Positions 4,328-10,492 of a stretch of 55,894 bases of DNA are shown in pieces. The first letter of the stretch is position 1, and each line of letters starts with the position of its first letter. The stretch comes from Leptolyngbyaceae cyanobacterium C42_A2020_001. GTDB taxonomy: Bacteria; Cyanobacteriota; Cyanobacteriia; Leptolyngbyales; Leptolyngbyaceae. Both the position numbers and the translations under genes were made by a program. Below the pieces are notes generated by a model. That model searched no databases and was not told the DNA's origin. It saw only the letters and a program-made list of their open reading frames with translations. The stretch covers positions 1 through 55,894 of the forward strand of contig JACYLN010000047.1 of assembly GCA_015272515.1 (NCBI GenBank), in the 5' to 3' direction.

Positions 4328-4840
4328 TTAGTTCATGTTGCGGGTACCCGGAGCACACTCAATCGCACTGACTGCATAAATGGGTGCAGTTGCGGGAGTA
4401 GCACTAGGTTGATTAGTTTCACACATAATCGATTGAATTGCCTGACTGCCATCAGTTTGCGTCAGCGCAGACATTCCTGCATAGGCATGAACCTTTGAGA
4501 TTTTGGGAGTGCCATAATGAACCGCATGAGTGCCATCTCCTGACACCTGAATTTGAAAAGTGTAGTTGATGTTTTGGTGTCCACTAATAGCAAGAACATC
4601 AATGTTGTCAGTAAATTGAGCGTGCTCCACGTAGTAGGCTTGTTGGGCACGATTCAACGTTCCCAGGAATGTCCTGGCTTCTGCCTGTTTGGCAGCATTG
4701 GCGCGCCCTAGAAAGGATGGAATTGCGATCGCCGCCAAGATGCCTCCGATCACCAGCACAACCATGAGTTCTATGAGTGTGAAACCACTGTCATGAGCAG
4801 CAATGCGCGAGAAGGCATACATATTCAATCTGGTACGCAC
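4328..4840 (-). CDS. Type IV pilin-like G/H family protein
   Basis: 170 residues from a GTG at 4840. A prepilin signature is clear: a short charged leader ending in DSG, then FTLIELMVVLVIGGILAAIA, the hydrophobic helix with Glu at position +5 where the prepilin peptidase cuts after Gly. After it comes the RANAAKQAEARTFLGTLNRAQQAYYVEH region typical of the cyanobacterial pilin G/H family, and a C-terminal pair of Cys residues. GTG 4840 is chosen because GGAGAG lies six bases upstream; the ATG at 4822 has no close ribosome binding site. It is a minor pilin or pseudopilin, probably in the type IV pilus that drives motility and uptake. It stands alone. Confidence 0.9.
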   Translation of the reverse strand: MRTRLNMYAFSRIAAHDSGFTLIELMVVLVIGGILAAIAIPSFLGRANAAKQAEARTFLGTLNRAQQAYYVEHAQFTDNIDVLAISGHQNINYTFQIQVSGDGTHAVHYGTPKISKVHAYAGMSALTQTDGSQAIQSIMCETNQPSATPATAPIYAVSAIECAPGTRNMN

Positions 4841-5360
4841 AACCGACTCTCCTAATACAACCAAAAGACGTTAGGAGCAGGTTTTGAGACAACAATATTT
4901 AGATCAGGACAGCATATCCCAGTAGGCTGGGGTTACATCTATAGGATGATGGCAAACGCACCCAAACAATACTGATCAGAAAAACCTGCTACCCCTACTT
5001 ACGTAATATCCTCAGAGGAAACAGGATGATCGAAAAAAAAATTATCTGTAAAATTACGGTCTACTGAATTGCCCTTCTCCTTAAAGAATTCGTGAAGTTG
5101 CGACTATTTCTGCACTTGAACGTACTTGTGCCAAAAGTGTAGATGGGTATAAATTAGTTGATCTCTGTTGACTATGTCCGAAGGATCACCAGCAAACAGC
5201 ATGGAAAATCCGATTTACTGGTGACGCTCCGGAGAAAGAAATTTACCAGCCTTGTTAGCAATACACCAACCCTAAAAAACGCCAGGTAGATTGGCATTTG
5301 CAATACGGTTGACAAAAACCAGTGACTTCGGGTTTTGAAGGTTACAGCAATTGGTTTGGG
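4841..5360. other. 520-base gap with an imperfect hairpin
   Basis: No gene of normal size is visible. It must hold the promoter of the pilin-like gene near 4860-4960. At 5178-5192 and 5218-5232 the segments CCGAAGGATCACCAG and CTGGTGACGCTCCGG pair at 12 of 15 positions around a 25-base loop. A start codon at 5174 would give only 16 residues. I could not match the hairpin to a known riboswitch. Confidence 0.5.
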
Positions 5361-6350
5361 TTAGTTGAAGCGATCGCGATCGTGTGATTCCCAAAAGTTC
5401 AATATGGGTCCTTTCGGCACGATTCGATTCGGGTTGATTGCCGTTTGGCTCATGTAGTAGTGGCGTTTGATGTGCTCCAAATTACAAGTTTCTGCAATCC
5501 CTGGGTATTGATACACATCTTTCAGGTAATTCCACAAATTAGGGTAATCTGCAATGCGCTTGAGGTTGCATTTGAAATGCCCGTGATACACCGAGTCGAA
5601 ACGCAGCAGGGTGGTAAATAAGCAAATGTCGGCTTCGGTGAGGCGCGCGGCTATGCCATTACCGCAAGAGTCGCCGCAAAGATACCGTTGTTCTCCTAAT
5701 ACCTTTTCCCAATCATCTAATGCCAGAAATAGCTCGGTCACCGCTTCTTCGTAAGCTGCTTGAGAAGTTGCAAACCCAGATCGATACACGCCATTGTTAA
5801 TCGGCATATAGATCGCATCAATGGTGTGGTCAATTTGCTCTCGCAAGGCTACGGGATACAGATCGAGAGGTGACTCAGCGATCGCGCCAAACTCAGTGTC
5901 AAACATCCGAATAATCTCGCGCGACTCGTTGTTAACAATCGTGTGCGTCTGCCTATCCCACAACACAGGCACCGTTACCCGCCCGGTGTAGTCAGATTTT
6001 GCCTTCAGGTAAATCTCTTGCAGATACTGCGTGTGATTCACTGAATCTGGAATTGCCCCCGGTGCATCCGAGAAAGCCCAGCCCTTTTCACTCAAGATGG
6101 GATCAACAATGGATACGCCGATCGCCTTTTGCAGTCCTTTGAGTGATCGCATGATCAGCGTCCGGTGTGCCCAGGGACAAGCCAGCGATACGTAAAGATG
6201 GTAGCGATCGGCTTCTGCTTTGAAGCCACTGGAACCGTCTGCCGTTACCCAGTTGCGAAATTTGGTTGGCATTCGGTTAAACTTACCGCTTGTATCCCGC
6301 TCCGTCCATTCGGTTGTCCATTTGCCATCTACCATCATTCCCAATGCCAT
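5361..6350 (-). CDS. Glutathionyl-hydroquinone reductase (xi-class GST, YqjG/ECM4 type)
   Basis: 329 residues from ATG 6350, which has AAGGAG ten bases upstream; a longer frame to 6416 would overlap the preceding gene. The enzyme reduces glutathionyl-hydroquinones, releasing glutathione. The catalytic Cys58 stands in SLACPWAHRTLIMR, the xi-class motif, followed by VSIVDPILSEKGWAF, PVLWDRQTHTIVNNES (thioredoxin-fold Pro and Ser) and a C-terminal helical domain with ADICLFTTLLRFD and KDVYQYPGIAETCN. Length and motif order match the family. It is the last gene of a four-gene minus-strand run with a VOC protein, pirin and a CDGSH protein, which points to quinone or electrophile detoxification. 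Confidence 0.93.
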   Translation of the reverse strand: MALGMMVDGKWTTEWTERDTSGKFNRMPTKFRNWVTADGSSGFKAEADRYHLYVSLACPWAHRTLIMRSLKGLQKAIGVSIVDPILSEKGWAFSDAPGAIPDSVNHTQYLQEIYLKAKSDYTGRVTVPVLWDRQTHTIVNNESREIIRMFDTEFGAIAESPLDLYPVALREQIDHTIDAIYMPINNGVYRSGFATSQAAYEEAVTELFLALDDWEKVLGEQRYLCGDSCGNGIAARLTEADICLFTTLLRFDSVYHGHFKCNLKRIADYPNLWNYLKDVYQYPGIAETCNLEHIKRHYYMSQTAINPNRIVPKGPILNFWESHDRDRFN

Positions 6351-6396
6351 TGGTTTTTGTCTCCTTCTTTTTTCTGTAGAGCCTTCGATCCCATCT

Positions 6397-6873
6397 CTAA
6401 CTCTTGCTGGTGCCAAAGCGTTCTAACTCGCGGGGTAAATTGAGCGATCGCGTCACTGCCTGATGCTCAAACTCGCCCCACTGCTCACGCGGCACTCGCC
6501 ATAAAATCTCAAATTCATGCCCATCAAGGTCGTGCCCGTAAATAGACTTGCTGGCTCCATGATCACTAGCACCCAGGTAGCAACCCGCTCGCTGCAACAC
6601 TTCCATCGCTGCCGCTAAATCTTCAATCCTGGTCACTTCCCACGCCAGGTGATACAGCCCCACAGTTCCTCGAACGGGCAAAGGCGCTTGTGCTCCCAAC
6701 GCGATTAATCCCAAATCATGATGATTAGCAGAACCCACCGCCCGCAACAATGCCATTTGGTTTTGCATTCGTGCCACTTCCTGGAAACCAAAAACTGATT
6801 GGTAGAAGCTCACCGATGGCTGCAATTCCCGGACAAATAAAACTGCGTGATTTAAGCCTGTGATAGGAATCAT
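6397..6873 (-). CDS. VOC-family (glyoxalase/extradiol dioxygenase-like) protein
   Basis: 158 residues from ATG 6873, preceded by GAGGAAAGAAGG. Two beta-alpha-beta-beta-beta modules are visible: ITGLNHAVLFVRE opens the first, with a metal-ligand His, VGLYHLAWEV opens the second with another His, and DLDGHEFEILW near the C-terminus supplies the acidic ligand. This is the metal pattern of catechol 2,3-dioxygenase and glyoxalase relatives; the substrate cannot be told from sequence. It sits 46 bases upstream of the glutathionyl-hydroquinone reductase and 63 bases after the pirin gene, so it probably handles a related aromatic or quinone compound. Confidence 0.88.
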   Translation of the reverse strand: MIPITGLNHAVLFVRELQPSVSFYQSVFGFQEVARMQNQMALLRAVGSANHHDLGLIALGAQAPLPVRGTVGLYHLAWEVTRIEDLAAAMEVLQRAGCYLGASDHGASKSIYGHDLDGHEFEILWRVPREQWGEFEHQAVTRSLNLPRELERFGTSKS

Positions 6874-6936
6874 GACCTTCTTTCCTCTAGTCCATAGTCC
6901 TCCCACCCATCCGGCTCAAGAGTGGGAGGACTGATT

Positions 6937-7647
6937 TTATGCCAAATCAAACAACACCACTTCAGCCGCAGTATTGGCTTCCAGAATCAGCTTCTGTTCC
7001 TCAGAAACCGCTGCTCCATCGCCTGCTTGCAGGGTATGACCGTTAAGCACCACTTCGCCTCTGACAACTTGCAGCCATGCGTGGCGATCGCGCCCCAATT
7101 CATAGACTCGCTTCTCGCCGACATCCAGTAGCGTGGTGAAAATCTCCACGTCTTGATGAATCGTTACGGAACCATCCGAGGCATTGCGGCTAGCCAGCTT
7201 CACCCATTCACCCTGTTGGGCTTCCAGAGAAAACACCTTTTGCTCATAGCTAGGGGTTAATCCCTTCGCTTCTGGAAACAACCAGATTTGCAGAAAGTGA
7301 ACCGTTTCAGCATCCGAGGGGTTGAATTCACTGTGGGCGATGCCTGTTCCGGCAGAAAACCGTTGCACCCCACGAGAGCCATTCTGAGAACCAACCGTCT
7401 CCACGTTTCCGAGACTGTCTCTGTGAGCCAATGCGCCCGAAATCACATAAGAGAGGATCTCCATATCGCGGTGGGGATGGGTGGGGAAGCCACCGCCAGG
7501 AGCGACTCGGTCTTCGTTAATGACTCGTAAGTCGCGGAAATGAATGTGGTCGGGATCGTAATAATTGGCAAAGGAAAAGGTGTGATAAGAGTTCAGCCAA
7601 CCGTGATTGGCGTGCCCGCGTTCTTGCGATCGCCGAATTGTAATCAT
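6937..7647 (-). CDS. Pirin family protein (quercetin 2,3-dioxygenase-like)
   Basis: 236 residues, a two-cupin protein. The N-terminal cupin has the four metal ligands of the family: His57 and His59 in GGGFPTHPHRDMEILSYV, and His105 and Glu107 in SAGTGIAHSEFN. Bacterial relatives such as YhhW bind iron and oxidise flavonols, and others act as redox sensors. The C-terminal cupin is the shorter, ligand-free type. The SQNGSRG loop at about residues 87-93 is a few residues longer than in YhhW. Second gene of the operon, with the CDGSH gene 18 bases upstream. Confidence 0.93.
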   Translation of the reverse strand: MITIRRSQERGHANHGWLNSYHTFSFANYYDPDHIHFRDLRVINEDRVAPGGGFPTHPHRDMEILSYVISGALAHRDSLGNVETVGSQNGSRGVQRFSAGTGIAHSEFNPSDAETVHFLQIWLFPEAKGLTPSYEQKVFSLEAQQGEWVKLASRNASDGSVTIHQDVEIFTTLLDVGEKRVYELGRDRHAWLQVVRGEVVLNGHTLQAGDGAAVSEEQKLILEANTAAEVVLFDLA

Positions 7648-7665
7648 GAGAACCTCCGAATAACA

Positions 7666-7902
7666 CTAGAGTTTGGTGTGCGAGCCATCACAAAAGGGTG
7701 TGTTTTGGGTGTACTTACAGTTGCAAAGAGCCACTGTTCGTTTTTCAGCCACCTCAAACTTCAATGGAGCGAACCCGGTGCCTTTATGGGAGCCATCACA
7801 AAAGGGTTGCCCTTGCGATCGCCCACAACTACACCAGTAATAGGTTCCAGCTTCTAGCTCCATCACAACAGGCTTGGTATCCGCGATCGTAGGTTCATTC
7901 AT
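7666..7902 (-). CDS. Two-motif CDGSH iron-sulfur protein
   Basis: 78 residues from ATG 7902, with GGAG seven bases upstream. Two CDGSH signatures are present: CSCGRSQGQPFCDGSH and CNCKYTQNTPFCDGSH, each giving three Cys and one His for a redox-active, labile [2Fe-2S] cluster. Tandem CDGSH proteins are small soluble proteins of unclear electron-transfer or sensor function. It is the first gene of the minus-strand operon, and its promoter is overlapped by palindromes. A longer frame reaching 7989 would run through those palindromes and is rejected. Confidence 0.92.
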   Translation of the reverse strand: MNEPTIADTKPVVMELEAGTYYWCSCGRSQGQPFCDGSHKGTGFAPLKFEVAEKRTVALCNCKYTQNTPFCDGSHTKL

Positions 7903-7919
7903 AGGTTCACTCCAAAACA

Positions 7920-7970
7920 AATGTTTGAATACAAACAATATAGCAAACTTAAAGTTTGAATGCAAACATT
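7920..7970 (-). promoter_or_regulatory. Promoter with three overlapping operator palindromes
   Basis: Reading the minus strand, TTGCAT (7965-7960) and TATATT (7942-7937) form -35 and -10 boxes with exactly 17 bases between. Palindromes cover each part: TGTTTG-AATA-CAAACA (7922-7937) just after the -10 box, CAAACTT-A-AAGTTTG (7944-7958) filling the spacer, and GTTTG-AATG-CAAAC (7954-7967) over the -35 box. The outer two are inverted copies of one 17-base sequence with two differences. This is the layout of a repressor that blocks polymerase, of MarR/HxlR/ArsR size. The M32 peptidase start is 69 bases to the right and could share the control. Confidence 0.85.
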
Positions 7971-8038
7971 CCTCTAAAAAGGAACCCATACAATATGGAG
8001 TAACTCAACAAAAATAATCGTCGCCCTATCTACCCACT

Positions 8039-9562
8039 ATGCAAACGCTTGAGAAAACTCATCCCGCCTTTCTAAAACTGCAAACCTTACTGGCTGAGAT
8101 TAACGATATCCAGTCTGCCGCCTCGCTGTTGCATTGGGATCAGGCGACCTATATGCCACCCAAAGGAGCCGCCGCCAGGGGACGGCAGTTGGCAACGCTG
8201 CGCCAGATTGCCCACGAGAAGTTTACCAATGGGGCGATCGCTCAACTGCTAGATGACCTCCGTAGCTACGAAGCCGATTTGCCTTACGATTCCGACGAAG
8301 CCAGCCTGATTCGGGTGACGCGGCGACAGTGCGATCGCGCCTCTAAAATTCCTGCCGAGTTTACTGCCCGCTTCTCTCAGTTGCGTTCAGATGCTTACCA
8401 GGCATGGGCAACTGCCCGACCCGCCAACAACTTTGCTGCTGTGCAGCCCTACCTGGAACGAATGGTAGATCTGAGCCGCGAACTCGCCAACTTTTTTCCC
8501 GGTTACAACCACATTGCCGATCCGTTGATTGAGTTTTCGGACTATGGCATGACGGCTCAGTCAATCCGCCGTGTGTTTGCCGAGCTGCGCGAACAATTGG
8601 TGCCCGTGGTTCAGGCAATCACCGCCCAACCTCCCGTGGATGATTCTTGTTTACGGCAATTCTTTCCTGAAGCACAGCAACTCGCCTTTAGCTACAAAGT
8701 TCTAGCCCAGATGGGATACGACCTGGAACGGGGACGACAGGATAAAACGCTGCACCCCTTCATGACCAATTTCTCGATTGATGACGTGCGGATTACAACG
8801 CGGGTGTATGAGAATGACCTGGGGCAGGGCTTGTTCAGCACGATTCATGAAATGGGACACGCCTTTTACGAAATGGGGGTTGATCCTGCATTTGAGGGCA
8901 ATCTGTTGGCGGCGGGTGTGTCTGCTGGAGTGCACGAGAGCCAGTCGCGCCTCTGGGAAAATCTGGTCGGCAGGTCGCGCCCCTTCTGGAGCTATTTCTA
9001 CCCACACCTACAAGCAATGTTCCCAACCCAGTTCAAAGATGTTTCGCTGGAAACGTTTTATCGGGCAATTAACAAGGTGGCGCGATCGCTGATTCGCACC
9101 GATGCCGATGAAGTCACTTACAACCTGCACGTGATGATTCGATTTGATCTGGAATTGGATTTGCTGGATGGAACGCTGGCAGTTCGAGATCTGCCCGAAG
9201 CCTGGAACGAGCGCTATCGCAGTGATTTGGGCGTTGTTCCGGAGAGCGATCGCGAAGGGGTGTTGCAGGATGTGCACTGGTTCACCGGGCGTATCGGCGG
9301 GATGTTTCAGGGCTATACGCTGGGTAATTTGATGAGTGCCCAATTTTTTGAAGCCGCACTGGCAGACATTCCCACCATTCCCACCCAGATTTCGCAGGGC
9401 AACTTTCAACCGCTGCACAATTGGCTAAAAGACAAAATTTATCGCCACGGCTGCAAATACACAGCAGATGAAACGGTTCAGCGCGTGACTGGCAAACCTT
9501 TAAGTACCGCTGCCTTCATGCGTTACATTCACCAGAAATATGGAGCATTGTATTCACTCTAA
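8039..9562 (+). CDS. M32 family metallocarboxypeptidase
   Basis: 507 residues, the normal size of thermostable carboxypeptidase Taq-type enzymes, which remove C-terminal residues. The zinc site is complete: His270, Glu271 and His274 in STIHEMGHAFYEMG, with Glu300 in GVHESQSRLWEN as third ligand. The N-terminal helical lid contains the conserved LHWDQATYMPP segment. No signal peptide, so cytosolic. It is divergent from the CDGSH-pirin-VOC operon, and a TACAAT box at 7989-7994 may serve it. Substrate in the cell is unknown. Confidence 0.94.
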   Translation: MQTLEKTHPAFLKLQTLLAEINDIQSAASLLHWDQATYMPPKGAAARGRQLATLRQIAHEKFTNGAIAQLLDDLRSYEADLPYDSDEASLIRVTRRQCDRASKIPAEFTARFSQLRSDAYQAWATARPANNFAAVQPYLERMVDLSRELANFFPGYNHIADPLIEFSDYGMTAQSIRRVFAELREQLVPVVQAITAQPPVDDSCLRQFFPEAQQLAFSYKVLAQMGYDLERGRQDKTLHPFMTNFSIDDVRITTRVYENDLGQGLFSTIHEMGHAFYEMGVDPAFEGNLLAAGVSAGVHESQSRLWENLVGRSRPFWSYFYPHLQAMFPTQFKDVSLETFYRAINKVARSLIRTDADEVTYNLHVMIRFDLELDLLDGTLAVRDLPEAWNERYRSDLGVVPESDREGVLQDVHWFTGRIGGMFQGYTLGNLMSAQFFEAALADIPTIPTQISQGNFQPLHNWLKDKIYRHGCKYTADETVQRVTGKPLSTAAFMRYIHQKYGALYSL

Positions 9563-9588
9563 TAAAAATGCCTCCGTCAATAGGAGGC
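9563..9588 (-). terminator. Terminator of psbY
   Basis: GCCTCC (9570-9575) and GGAGGC (9583-9588) form a 6-bp GC-rich stem with a 7-base loop. On the minus strand the stem is followed by ATTTTTATT, so it works in the psbY direction, reading towards the M32 gene. It lies directly after the M32 stop. Confidence 0.75.
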
Positions 9589-9695
9589 AACAACTGCTGT
9601 TGAAATGAAACCTTCTCTACACCCAGACCCGCATCTGTTTGTTAGAGAAACCTCAGTTGCAGAGTTGGACGGGGTTCAAAGCCAGAAATCAGCCA

Positions 9696-9812
9696 CTAGC
9701 TCTTGGAGATGAAGTCTTGTCCTTGCTTAAGGGCTTGTTGTCCAATGTTTTTGAAGACCCAGCCCAGAGCGAGTGCAAGGGGAAGCAACACAATCAGCAA
9801 ACGCCAGTCCAT
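9696..9812 (-). CDS. psbY: Photosystem II small protein PsbY
   Basis: A 38-residue frame starting at ATG 9812. It begins MDWRLLIVLLPLALALGW, a Trp-capped single membrane helix, followed by VFKNIGQQALKQ and a short polar tail. The MDWR start and the NIG..AL pattern are those of PsbY, a peripheral subunit of photosystem II beside cytochrome b559. GAGAGG lies eight bases before the start. It is shorter than usual ORF cut-offs and easily missed. Single-gene unit with its own terminator at 9563-9588. Confidence 0.9.
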   Translation of the reverse strand: MDWRLLIVLLPLALALGWVFKNIGQQALKQGQDFISKS

Positions 9813-9937
9813 AGTGAGTACCTCTCAACCTATTAATAAAGATTTTTGAACCGTTCTCATATTTACTTTGTATCGCAAGTTTACCTGTTTTCCTAGTCCT
9901 CTTTTGCCTGATACCAGGCTGATTTGCGCCAGATTTT

Positions 9938-10492
9938 CTAAAGTTTTGTAAAGCCCAGATCGGTGCCTGTGTTGGCATGAACCCGCGCCAACTTCTCATA
10001 ATTTTGGGCGTGGTCAATTAAGTGGCTCACTTCCTCGTCAGAGAGCGATCGCACCACTTTTCCAGGCACACCCACTACCAGCGATCGCGGCGGCACATCT
10101 TTAGTCACAACCGCCCCGGCTCCAATGATGCTACCTGCCCCAATTCGGACTCCATCTAACACGATCGCGCCAATTCCGATCAGGCTCCCCCGTTCAACGT
10201 GGGCACTGTGAACCACTGCTCGATGCCCTACCGTCACGGACTCTTCTAAAATTGTTGGTTGCCCCGGATCACCATGCAAAATCGCGCCATCCTGAATGTT
10301 GGTACAGGGACCAATCACAATTTTTTCCACATCCCCGCGTACCACGGCTCCGTACCAGATGCTGACCCCTACCGCGATCGTCACATTTCCAATCACGGTT
10401 GCATTGGGAGCCACAAATGCTGCTTGAGAGAGATCTGGAGGTGTCCAAAACACAGGAGAATACAGTGATTGAGCGTTGAATTCTTCCACCAC
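9938..10492 (-). CDS. Gamma carbonic anhydrase-like left-handed beta-helix protein
   Basis: 184 residues from a GTG at 10492. Hexapeptide repeats run through most of it (ATVIGNVTIAVGVSIWYGAV, IGAGSIIGAGAVVTKD), followed by a C-terminal helix. The three zinc ligands expected for gamma carbonic anhydrases are visible as His in AILHGDPG and as two His in VGHRAVVHSAH. The family includes true carbonic anhydrases, CcmM N-termini and acyltransferase-like YrdA proteins, so activity is not certain. The reading frame continues upstream to 10963, but that part lies opposite the gene at 10604-11113 and has no family features. The GTG GTG pair at 10492/10489 gives the normal length; no strong ribosome binding site decides between them. 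Confidence 0.85.
   Translation of the reverse strand: MVEEFNAQSLYSPVFWTPPDLSQAAFVAPNATVIGNVTIAVGVSIWYGAVVRGDVEKIVIGPCTNIQDGAILHGDPGQPTILEESVTVGHRAVVHSAHVERGSLIGIGAIVLDGVRIGAGSIIGAGAVVTKDVPPRSLVVGVPGKVVRSLSDEEVSHLIDHAQNYEKLARVHANTGTDLGFTKL

Follow-up and report, generated by a model that had tools for sequence, protein, structure and literature searches.

The window analysed here, the whole stretch of 55,894 nucleotides in contig JACYLN010000047.1 of Leptolyngbyaceae cyanobacterium C42_A2020_001 (the source genome), carries four minus-strand genes that encode a CDGSH iron-sulfur protein, a pirin, a VOC protein and a glutathionyl-hydroquinone reductase (GHR). Comparison with other cyanobacterial genomes makes it probable that this operon is repressed, through two palindromes at its promoter, by a MarR-family protein encoded elsewhere in the genome, and released by a quinone, hydroquinone or catechol-like compound. 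The candidate repressor, of a kind called type A below, is supported by its linkage to the palindrome in other families, by its co-occurrence with it and by a parallel second MarR clade; as a prediction, a MarR repressor that senses quinones or catechols has good backing from genome comparison. Quinones are essential yet dangerous in photosynthetic bacteria, and for the defence against them a candidate regulator, its operators and its likely targets can now be named.

MarR proteins bind a palindrome as dimers, usually over promoter elements. In the mechanism we propose, the promoter at 7937-7965 would be switched by the unlinked MarR repressor encoded at G000:C123:1028-1432 (handles: G, genome; C, contig; L, locus; g, genus), the orthologue of the MarR protein found beside the palindrome elsewhere. 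Two dimers would sit three helical turns apart, one on each 14-bp palindrome at the -35 box and at the start region, and keep RNA polymerase from the promoter. With a quinone, hydroquinone or catechol-like compound in its pocket the repressor would let go of the DNA, and the four genes would be expressed together. GHR would then reduce glutathionyl-hydroquinones, the pirin and perhaps the VOC protein would act on aromatic rings, and the CDGSH protein would have a redox or Fe-S role. We infer binding, repression rather than activation, cooperativity and the ligand; a quinone or catechol signal is the likeliest inducer.

Promoter and operators

The promoter TGCTATATT (7937-7965, minus strand), upstream of the CDGSH gene, consists of TTGCAT, 17 bp and TATATT, exactly as read in a first-pass annotation made from the sequence alone; TATATT is also preceded by TGC, a TG extension of the -10 that is absent from that annotation. 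Candidate operator 1, the palindrome AATGTTTGCATTCAAACTTT in minus-strand reading (7951-7970), contains the -35 hexamer TTGCAT, and candidate operator 2, ATTGTTTGTATTCAAACATT in the same reading (7920-7939), lies over the expected transcription start. Each includes an exact copy of the 14-bp palindrome GTTTGnATnCAAAC (7954-7967 and 7923-7936), the two being 31 bp apart, and the whole 5.55-Mb draft genome (149 contigs) holds no exact copy besides these. The first-pass annotation had placed three palindromes here. The outer two are exact, whereas the middle one, CAAACTTAAAGTTTG (7944-7958), is present at the source locus but not kept in the relatives checked (G303, G304 and G306), and looks like a by-product. 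A local repeat search was uninformative as proof of the palindromes.

At up to one mismatch GTTTGnATnCAAAC occurs at 19 places in the source genome versus 18 for the reversed pattern, and the 13 inspected among the 17 one-mismatch places showed, by eye, open reading frames without an obvious regulon member. One-mismatch sites are thus not in excess, and the source genome gives no sign of a wider regulon. A strict promoter scan scored the operon promoter 9/12, in a register one base off and with a spacer of 18, and reported one promoter-like site in 4500-10200 versus a mean of 5.5 in shuffled sequences. Since this count is below that of the shuffles, the consensus match alone is no proof, and it is conservation that argues for the promoter. 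In G303, a genome of the same genus, an exact palindrome lies shortly upstream of an apparent cysteine synthase gene (L134, G303:C1:3528195-3528212).

Conservation was measured in 42 genomes of the family Leptolyngbyaceae. A pirin was found in 41 of them (G299, without one, was left out), and the 400 bp upstream of their 45 pirin genes were scanned, counting the best match per genome. At up to two mismatches GTTTGnATnCAAAC stands upstream of pirin in 27 of the 41 genomes, versus 3 of 41 for the reversed sequence, so that the test of conservation at orthologous operons, which the first-pass annotation had set for its own reading, did not refute that reading. Alignment of 31 promoters picked because they carry the motif, intact or degenerate (29 from the family, that of Tildeniella, which equals the G322 promoter, and that of Synechococcaceae SM2_3_2), placed a -35-like hexamer inside the first palindrome. 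A spacer of 17 was seen in 24 and the TG extension in 25 of these 31, figures that are partly selected because the best -10 was taken among spacers of 16-18. In the group of the source genome and in some others a further, often degenerate site follows 31 bp downstream; several promoters of genera g126 and g129 have theirs at about 42 bp, with forms like AAAGTACGAnTTCAAACATT. These spacings are near three and four whole helical turns and would put both sites on the same helix face. At about 42 bp downstream of the palindrome an asymmetric element, AAAGTACGAnTT, was also noticed in L253, L256, L257 and several g126 and g129 promoters, and is common to distant families.

A class-wide exact search for the extended palindrome ANNGTTTGNATNCAAACNNT in 388 genomes returned 20 distinct sites in 17 genomes (reversed, 6). 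Thirteen of the 20 are at pirin promoters; for three, of which G314 has two and G327 one, no link is apparent. A phylum-wide search for the pair with both sites exact matched the source genome only among 292 genomes, a sample which, with 4 family genomes and many small ones, says little.

A candidate MarR repressor

No regulator gene adjoins the source operon, and within the family none flanked by the motif was seen by eye among 8 loci away from pirin. A candidate regulator came into view outside the family, where four of the five exact sites (in G366, G368, G353 and G440, of three other families) are beside a CDGSH gene and about 0.9 kb or less from a MarR gene of one and the same kind. Orthologues of this gene are present in 34 of the 42 family genomes (E 6.9e-47 or better). 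In the source genome the alignment match at G000:C123:1028-1432 (L195) is 64% identical, and its product belongs to the MarR family, with 60.4 bits for PF01047 (cut-off 24.6) and 54.1 bits for PF12802 (cut-off 27).

Presence of the candidate regulator goes with presence of its proposed operator: the palindrome stands at pirin in 26 of the 32 genomes that have a type-A MarR, compared with 1 of the 9 that do not (Fisher p 2.4e-4, kinship ignored; type A was assigned by the recognition region for 31 genomes, and G317 was checked after the count). The association is also seen within genera. Six genomes of g131 have both MarR and palindrome, while G327 of that genus lacks both the MarR and the palindrome at pirin, its one exact copy lying elsewhere. 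In g118, type-A MarR and palindrome occur together in G294, whereas G293 has only a type-B MarR and lacks the palindrome at pirin.

Genes for this MarR fetched from two further families gave 42 loci. CDGSH genes lie within 1.5 kb of MarR in ten of these (L224, L225 and L248 being three of the four discovery loci, and seven new), and GHR genes in six (L242-L245, L258 and L265; only an end fragment of GHR is in view at L242, and a short, 44% identical match at L238 was excluded). Further neighbours look like DoxX, a LigB/DODA-type dioxygenase and an NDH-2-like flavoprotein, for which one example each was confirmed in Pfam (DoxX, LigB and Pyr_redox_2).

A second MarR clade with its own palindrome

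The recognition region of the MarR proteins reads mostly KTLVTKGTLTGI in type A and KTLITKGTLTGV in type B. Both types are separated with 100/99 support in a tree of 74 rows (45 A, 29 B), which is unrooted, so that type A need not be a clade, and from which L246 was left out. Three of the 78 MarR loci (L220, L239 and L241) remained unparsed; L220, of G317, was read by hand as type A, and the other two were dropped.

The type-B clade accompanies a different palindrome, TAGTTCTAnnTAGAACTA. At up to one mismatch and within 700 bp of the MarR gene, GTTCTnnnnAGAAC occurs at 12 of 29 type-B loci (reversed, 1/29), and GTTTGnnnnCAAAC at 8 of 46 type-A loci (reversed, 2/46) and at 2 of 29 type-B loci (reversed, 1/29); the counts for both motifs include the loci from which they were read, and the type-A matches at L227 and L249 look like chance. 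An exact search of 376 genomes for TAGTTCTANNTAGAACTA gave 8 sites in 8 genomes of 4 genera versus 1 site for the reversed pattern. Each of the eight has both a type-B MarR gene and a LigB/DODA-type dioxygenase gene no more than about 0.8 kb away; GHR is in view at four and CDGSH together with DoxX at one, as scored from flanks of about 1.5 kb. Among these genomes G419 and G491 belong to the motif-source loci, the MarR locus of G293 was known beforehand and its site is new, and five genomes, all of genus g58, are new. The LigB protein beside the type-B MarR of L260 matches YgiD (2pw6) at 1.7e-51. Two MarR clades with two palindromes offer a natural experiment on how a change in the recognition helix alters the DNA target.

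Imperfect palindromes such as ATAGTTCTAATTAAAACAGT, intermediate between the operator types, stand directly upstream of g126 MarR genes (L175, L176, L179, L182 and L189). Weak self-control of MarR is possible there.

Operon genes and the likely signal

The four genes hold as the first-pass annotation had drawn them, with all families confirmed in Pfam and those of GHR and pirin also by comparison with solved structures. From the promoter onwards the minus strand encodes the CDGSH protein (7666-7902, 78 aa; PF09360, E 1.6e-21), the pirin (6937-7647, 236 aa; PF02678 and PF17954), the VOC protein of the glyoxalase/extradiol dioxygenase superfamily (6397-6873, 158 aa; PF00903) and GHR (5361-6350, 329 aa), a Xi-class glutathione S-transferase (GST) with a GST domain in Pfam. 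The gaps measure 18 bp (pirin/CDGSH), 63 bp (VOC/pirin) and 46 bp (GHR/VOC), and the four genes are presumably co-transcribed.

In the PDB, GHR matches E. coli YqjG (3r3e, E 3.1e-111), 4uss (4e-98) and 4fqu; these three matches span most of its length, and a CPWA motif is seen in the alignment to 6gzf. Its likeness to known GHRs together with CPWA identifies it as a predicted Xi-class GST. Synechocystis has a GHR, Slr0605, reported to be genuine and required for benzoquinone tolerance (PMC11673678). The pirin, whose top PDB matches are 6uts (E 5.7e-74) and YhhW (1tq5, E 6.8e-74, across residues 1-235), is by its two cupin domains and full-length similarity to YhhW a predicted member of the YhhW/quercetinase type. 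The VOC protein has weak PDB matches only, with no clear close relative among them, and its scores against the HpaD and catechol 2,3-dioxygenase models are weak and well under the cut-off.

Divergent from the operon lies a gene for an M32 peptidase (8039-9562; M32 confirmed in Pfam). The suggestion in the first-pass annotation that it shares the control of the operon found no support: within flanks of about 1.5 kb it adjoins the operon in 3 of 30 family loci, in G303, which belongs to the source genus, it does not come into view, and no conserved arrangement that would mark it as co-regulated was found.

With regard to the signal, the PDB sequence closest to the source-genome MarR is Staphylococcus aureus MhqR (6.1e-14; next, 1.1e-11). 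MhqR is reported to repress quinone-response genes through a palindrome and to bind methylbenzoquinone via F11, F39, E43 and H111; sensing in vivo requires three of these four, F11, F39 and H111 (PMC12893000). All 15 aligned MarR members have Phe at the place of F39, and His stands at the place of H111 in 41 of the 46 type-A and 27 of the 29 type-B proteins. The cyanobacterial MarR may work like MhqR.

Alternative explanations

Several observations weigh against a type-A MarR repressor released by quinones. Within the family Leptolyngbyaceae the MarR gene is unlinked to the operon, and the MarR genes' own promoters have at best degenerate sites, that of the source genome a weak one. The motif is missing at pirin in six type-A genomes (G060, G185, G300, G305, G308 and G316), G295, a draft of 82% completeness, has the motif and no MarR, and outside the family 8 of 15 type-A loci are, on our reading, without a convincing site in view. 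The co-occurrence may also reflect joint loss of operon and regulator. Nor is the split between the operator types clean: the type-B-like GTTCTnnnnAGAAC lies within 700 bp at 5 of 46 type-A loci (reversed, 3/46), three of the five being MarR promoters of g126, and five of the eight exact type-B sites come from one genus (g58). On the side of the pocket, MhqR leads narrowly when a profile of 15 members is used (1.1e-18 versus 2.5e-18 for the next), the F39 equivalent is Tyr in G317, that of F11 is not kept (L, M, V or I), and neither is that of E43, for which a count covering type A only gives Ala in 24 of 46 proteins and Cys in 18.

The alternative that survives best, though we regard it as rather unlikely, accepts the MarR protein and makes it an activator, or lets it respond to another stress such as peroxide, sulfane sulfur, methylglyoxal or a metal. 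MarR proteins do sense varied signals, sulfane sulfur reportedly among them (PMC11211675), the Cys that 18 of 46 type-A proteins have where MhqR has E43 would suit thiol chemistry, and the Synechocystis GHR is described as protecting against cobalt too (PMC11673678). The source-genome MarR, however, has Ala and not Cys at this place, an operator pair that covers -35 box and start would suit a repressor that blocks polymerase, and both the pirin and the genes around MarR (GHR, DODA dioxygenase, DoxX, Pyr_redox_2 flavoprotein and CDGSH) fit quinol chemistry.

Slightly less probable again is a different unlinked regulator, of TetR, GntR or another MarR type, which would bind the palindromes while the MarR linkage elsewhere reflected shared function only. 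The unlinked MarR gene in the family and the six type-A genomes without the motif would fit this, and our regulator profiling across genomes covered only the regulator families examined here. Against it, this one MarR gene is no further than 0.9 kb from four of the five exact sites outside the family, and the type-B clade shows the same pattern around another palindrome. A LysR protein is unlikely on a symmetry argument of ours, the palindromes being of even length.

The first-pass annotation had left the choice between a MarR-type and an HxlR-type repressor over a quinone or aromatic operon. Comparison bears out the MarR class and the double operator and tells against HxlR, for which we see only a slim chance. 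Of 80 fetched pirin loci, 9, all in cyanobacteria of other groups, have an HxlR gene divergent to pirin/CDGSH, a tenth match stands at the pirin locus of G301 (L208, G301:C138) in the Leptolyngbyaceae family, and the closest homologue in the source genome, L018 (G000:C143), is 53-65% identical to the nine. Yet none of the nine loci has GTTTGnATnCAAAC at up to one mismatch, and eight share an unrelated 45-bp block, CATAGTATCTTTTTGGGTAGTATCTTACTTTAAAGTGCATACTTT (1-9 mismatches in L024, L025, L026, L028, L049, L066, L088 and L095; L079 is without it). This block is absent from the source locus (best, 22 mismatches, L103), which also has no adjacent HxlR gene; G301 is without the MarR, and palindrome and block are both missing from its pirin locus. 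Around the five HxlR (PF01638) matches of the source genome no exact or one-mismatch motif lies within about 1.5 kb. HxlR was rejected as regulator of the operon since its loci carry a different conserved block. One of the source-genome HxlR genes, L019 (G000:C85:16959-17222), has an in-frame TGA inside the match and is either a pseudogene or affected by a sequencing error.

That four genes are merely adjacent and the palindromes due to chance has practically nothing in its favour beyond the ordinary strict score of the promoter, and is contradicted by a palindrome pair that is unique in the genome and conserved across genera.

Comparison with known systems

Among the papers listed by searches of open-access literature, none describes this regulator in its title or the opening of its abstract; subscription journals lie mostly outside those searches, so novelty is unproven. 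The nearest known system to the proposed type-A MarR repressor is S. aureus MhqR with its operon mhqRED, which shares the MarR family, is the nearest solved sequence and has two pocket residues that are mostly kept. Its operator, TATCTCGAA-ATCGAAATA, differs from the GTTTGnATnCAAAC of the source operon, its target operon includes mhqR itself whereas the source MarR gene is unlinked, and the target genes differ. As the full pocket (F11, F39, E43 and H111) is not found in the cyanobacterial MarR, we do not class it as MhqR. HpaR, the MarR regulator of homoprotocatechuate degradation, is among the best NCBIfam models (15 of 15 aligned MarR members at E up to 1e-5). Its target genes are different, and the 57 bits of the source MarR are below the TIGR02337 cut-off of 121.2, so that the source MarR is not an HpaR.

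We take E. coli yqjF to encode a DoxX protein and to adjoin the GHR gene yqjG. The E. coli LysR regulator YhaJ is reported to control a hydroquinone-induced regulon that comprises the pirin YhhW, the DODA dioxygenase YgiD, yhaK, ybiJ, yceP and yqjF (PMC5031710). The kinds of enzyme are the same as here, the source pirin having YhhW (1tq5) as its second-best PDB match and the LigB protein beside a type-B MarR matching YgiD (2pw6); the regulator is different, a LysR protein with a T-N11-A box and not a MarR protein.

In Synechocystis a pirin is likewise under a dedicated repressor, the LysR protein PirR (Slr1871; pirAB), as stated with reference to Hihara 2004 (PMC5318462). PirR differs from the proposed MarR repressor in its family and in being divergent from and adjacent to its target. 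A LysR gene (MDKFE...) is also divergent to a second type of pirin in the Leptolyngbyaceae family (L130, L131, L209, L212, L217 and L218). This second type is 54-59% identical to the source pirin and has no GTTTG palindrome, and G295, G296, G321 and G325 have two pirin loci each.

One could go further and imagine a single ancient cyanobacterial set for clearing hydroquinones and catechols (GHR, pirin, CDGSH, DoxX, DODA dioxygenase and NDH-2-like flavoprotein) whose control was repeatedly swapped among type-A MarR, type-B MarR with an altered operator, HxlR and LysR, with the MarR sensing an endogenous photosynthetic quinone or quinol and so reading plastoquinone redox state or breakdown directly; this is speculative, and we would bet heavily against it. 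The type-A MarR repressor proposed here would join the known quinone-responsive repressors of the MarR type, next to the LysR control of pirin already known from PirR, and cyanobacterial pirin promoters would then present different regulator families over related genes.

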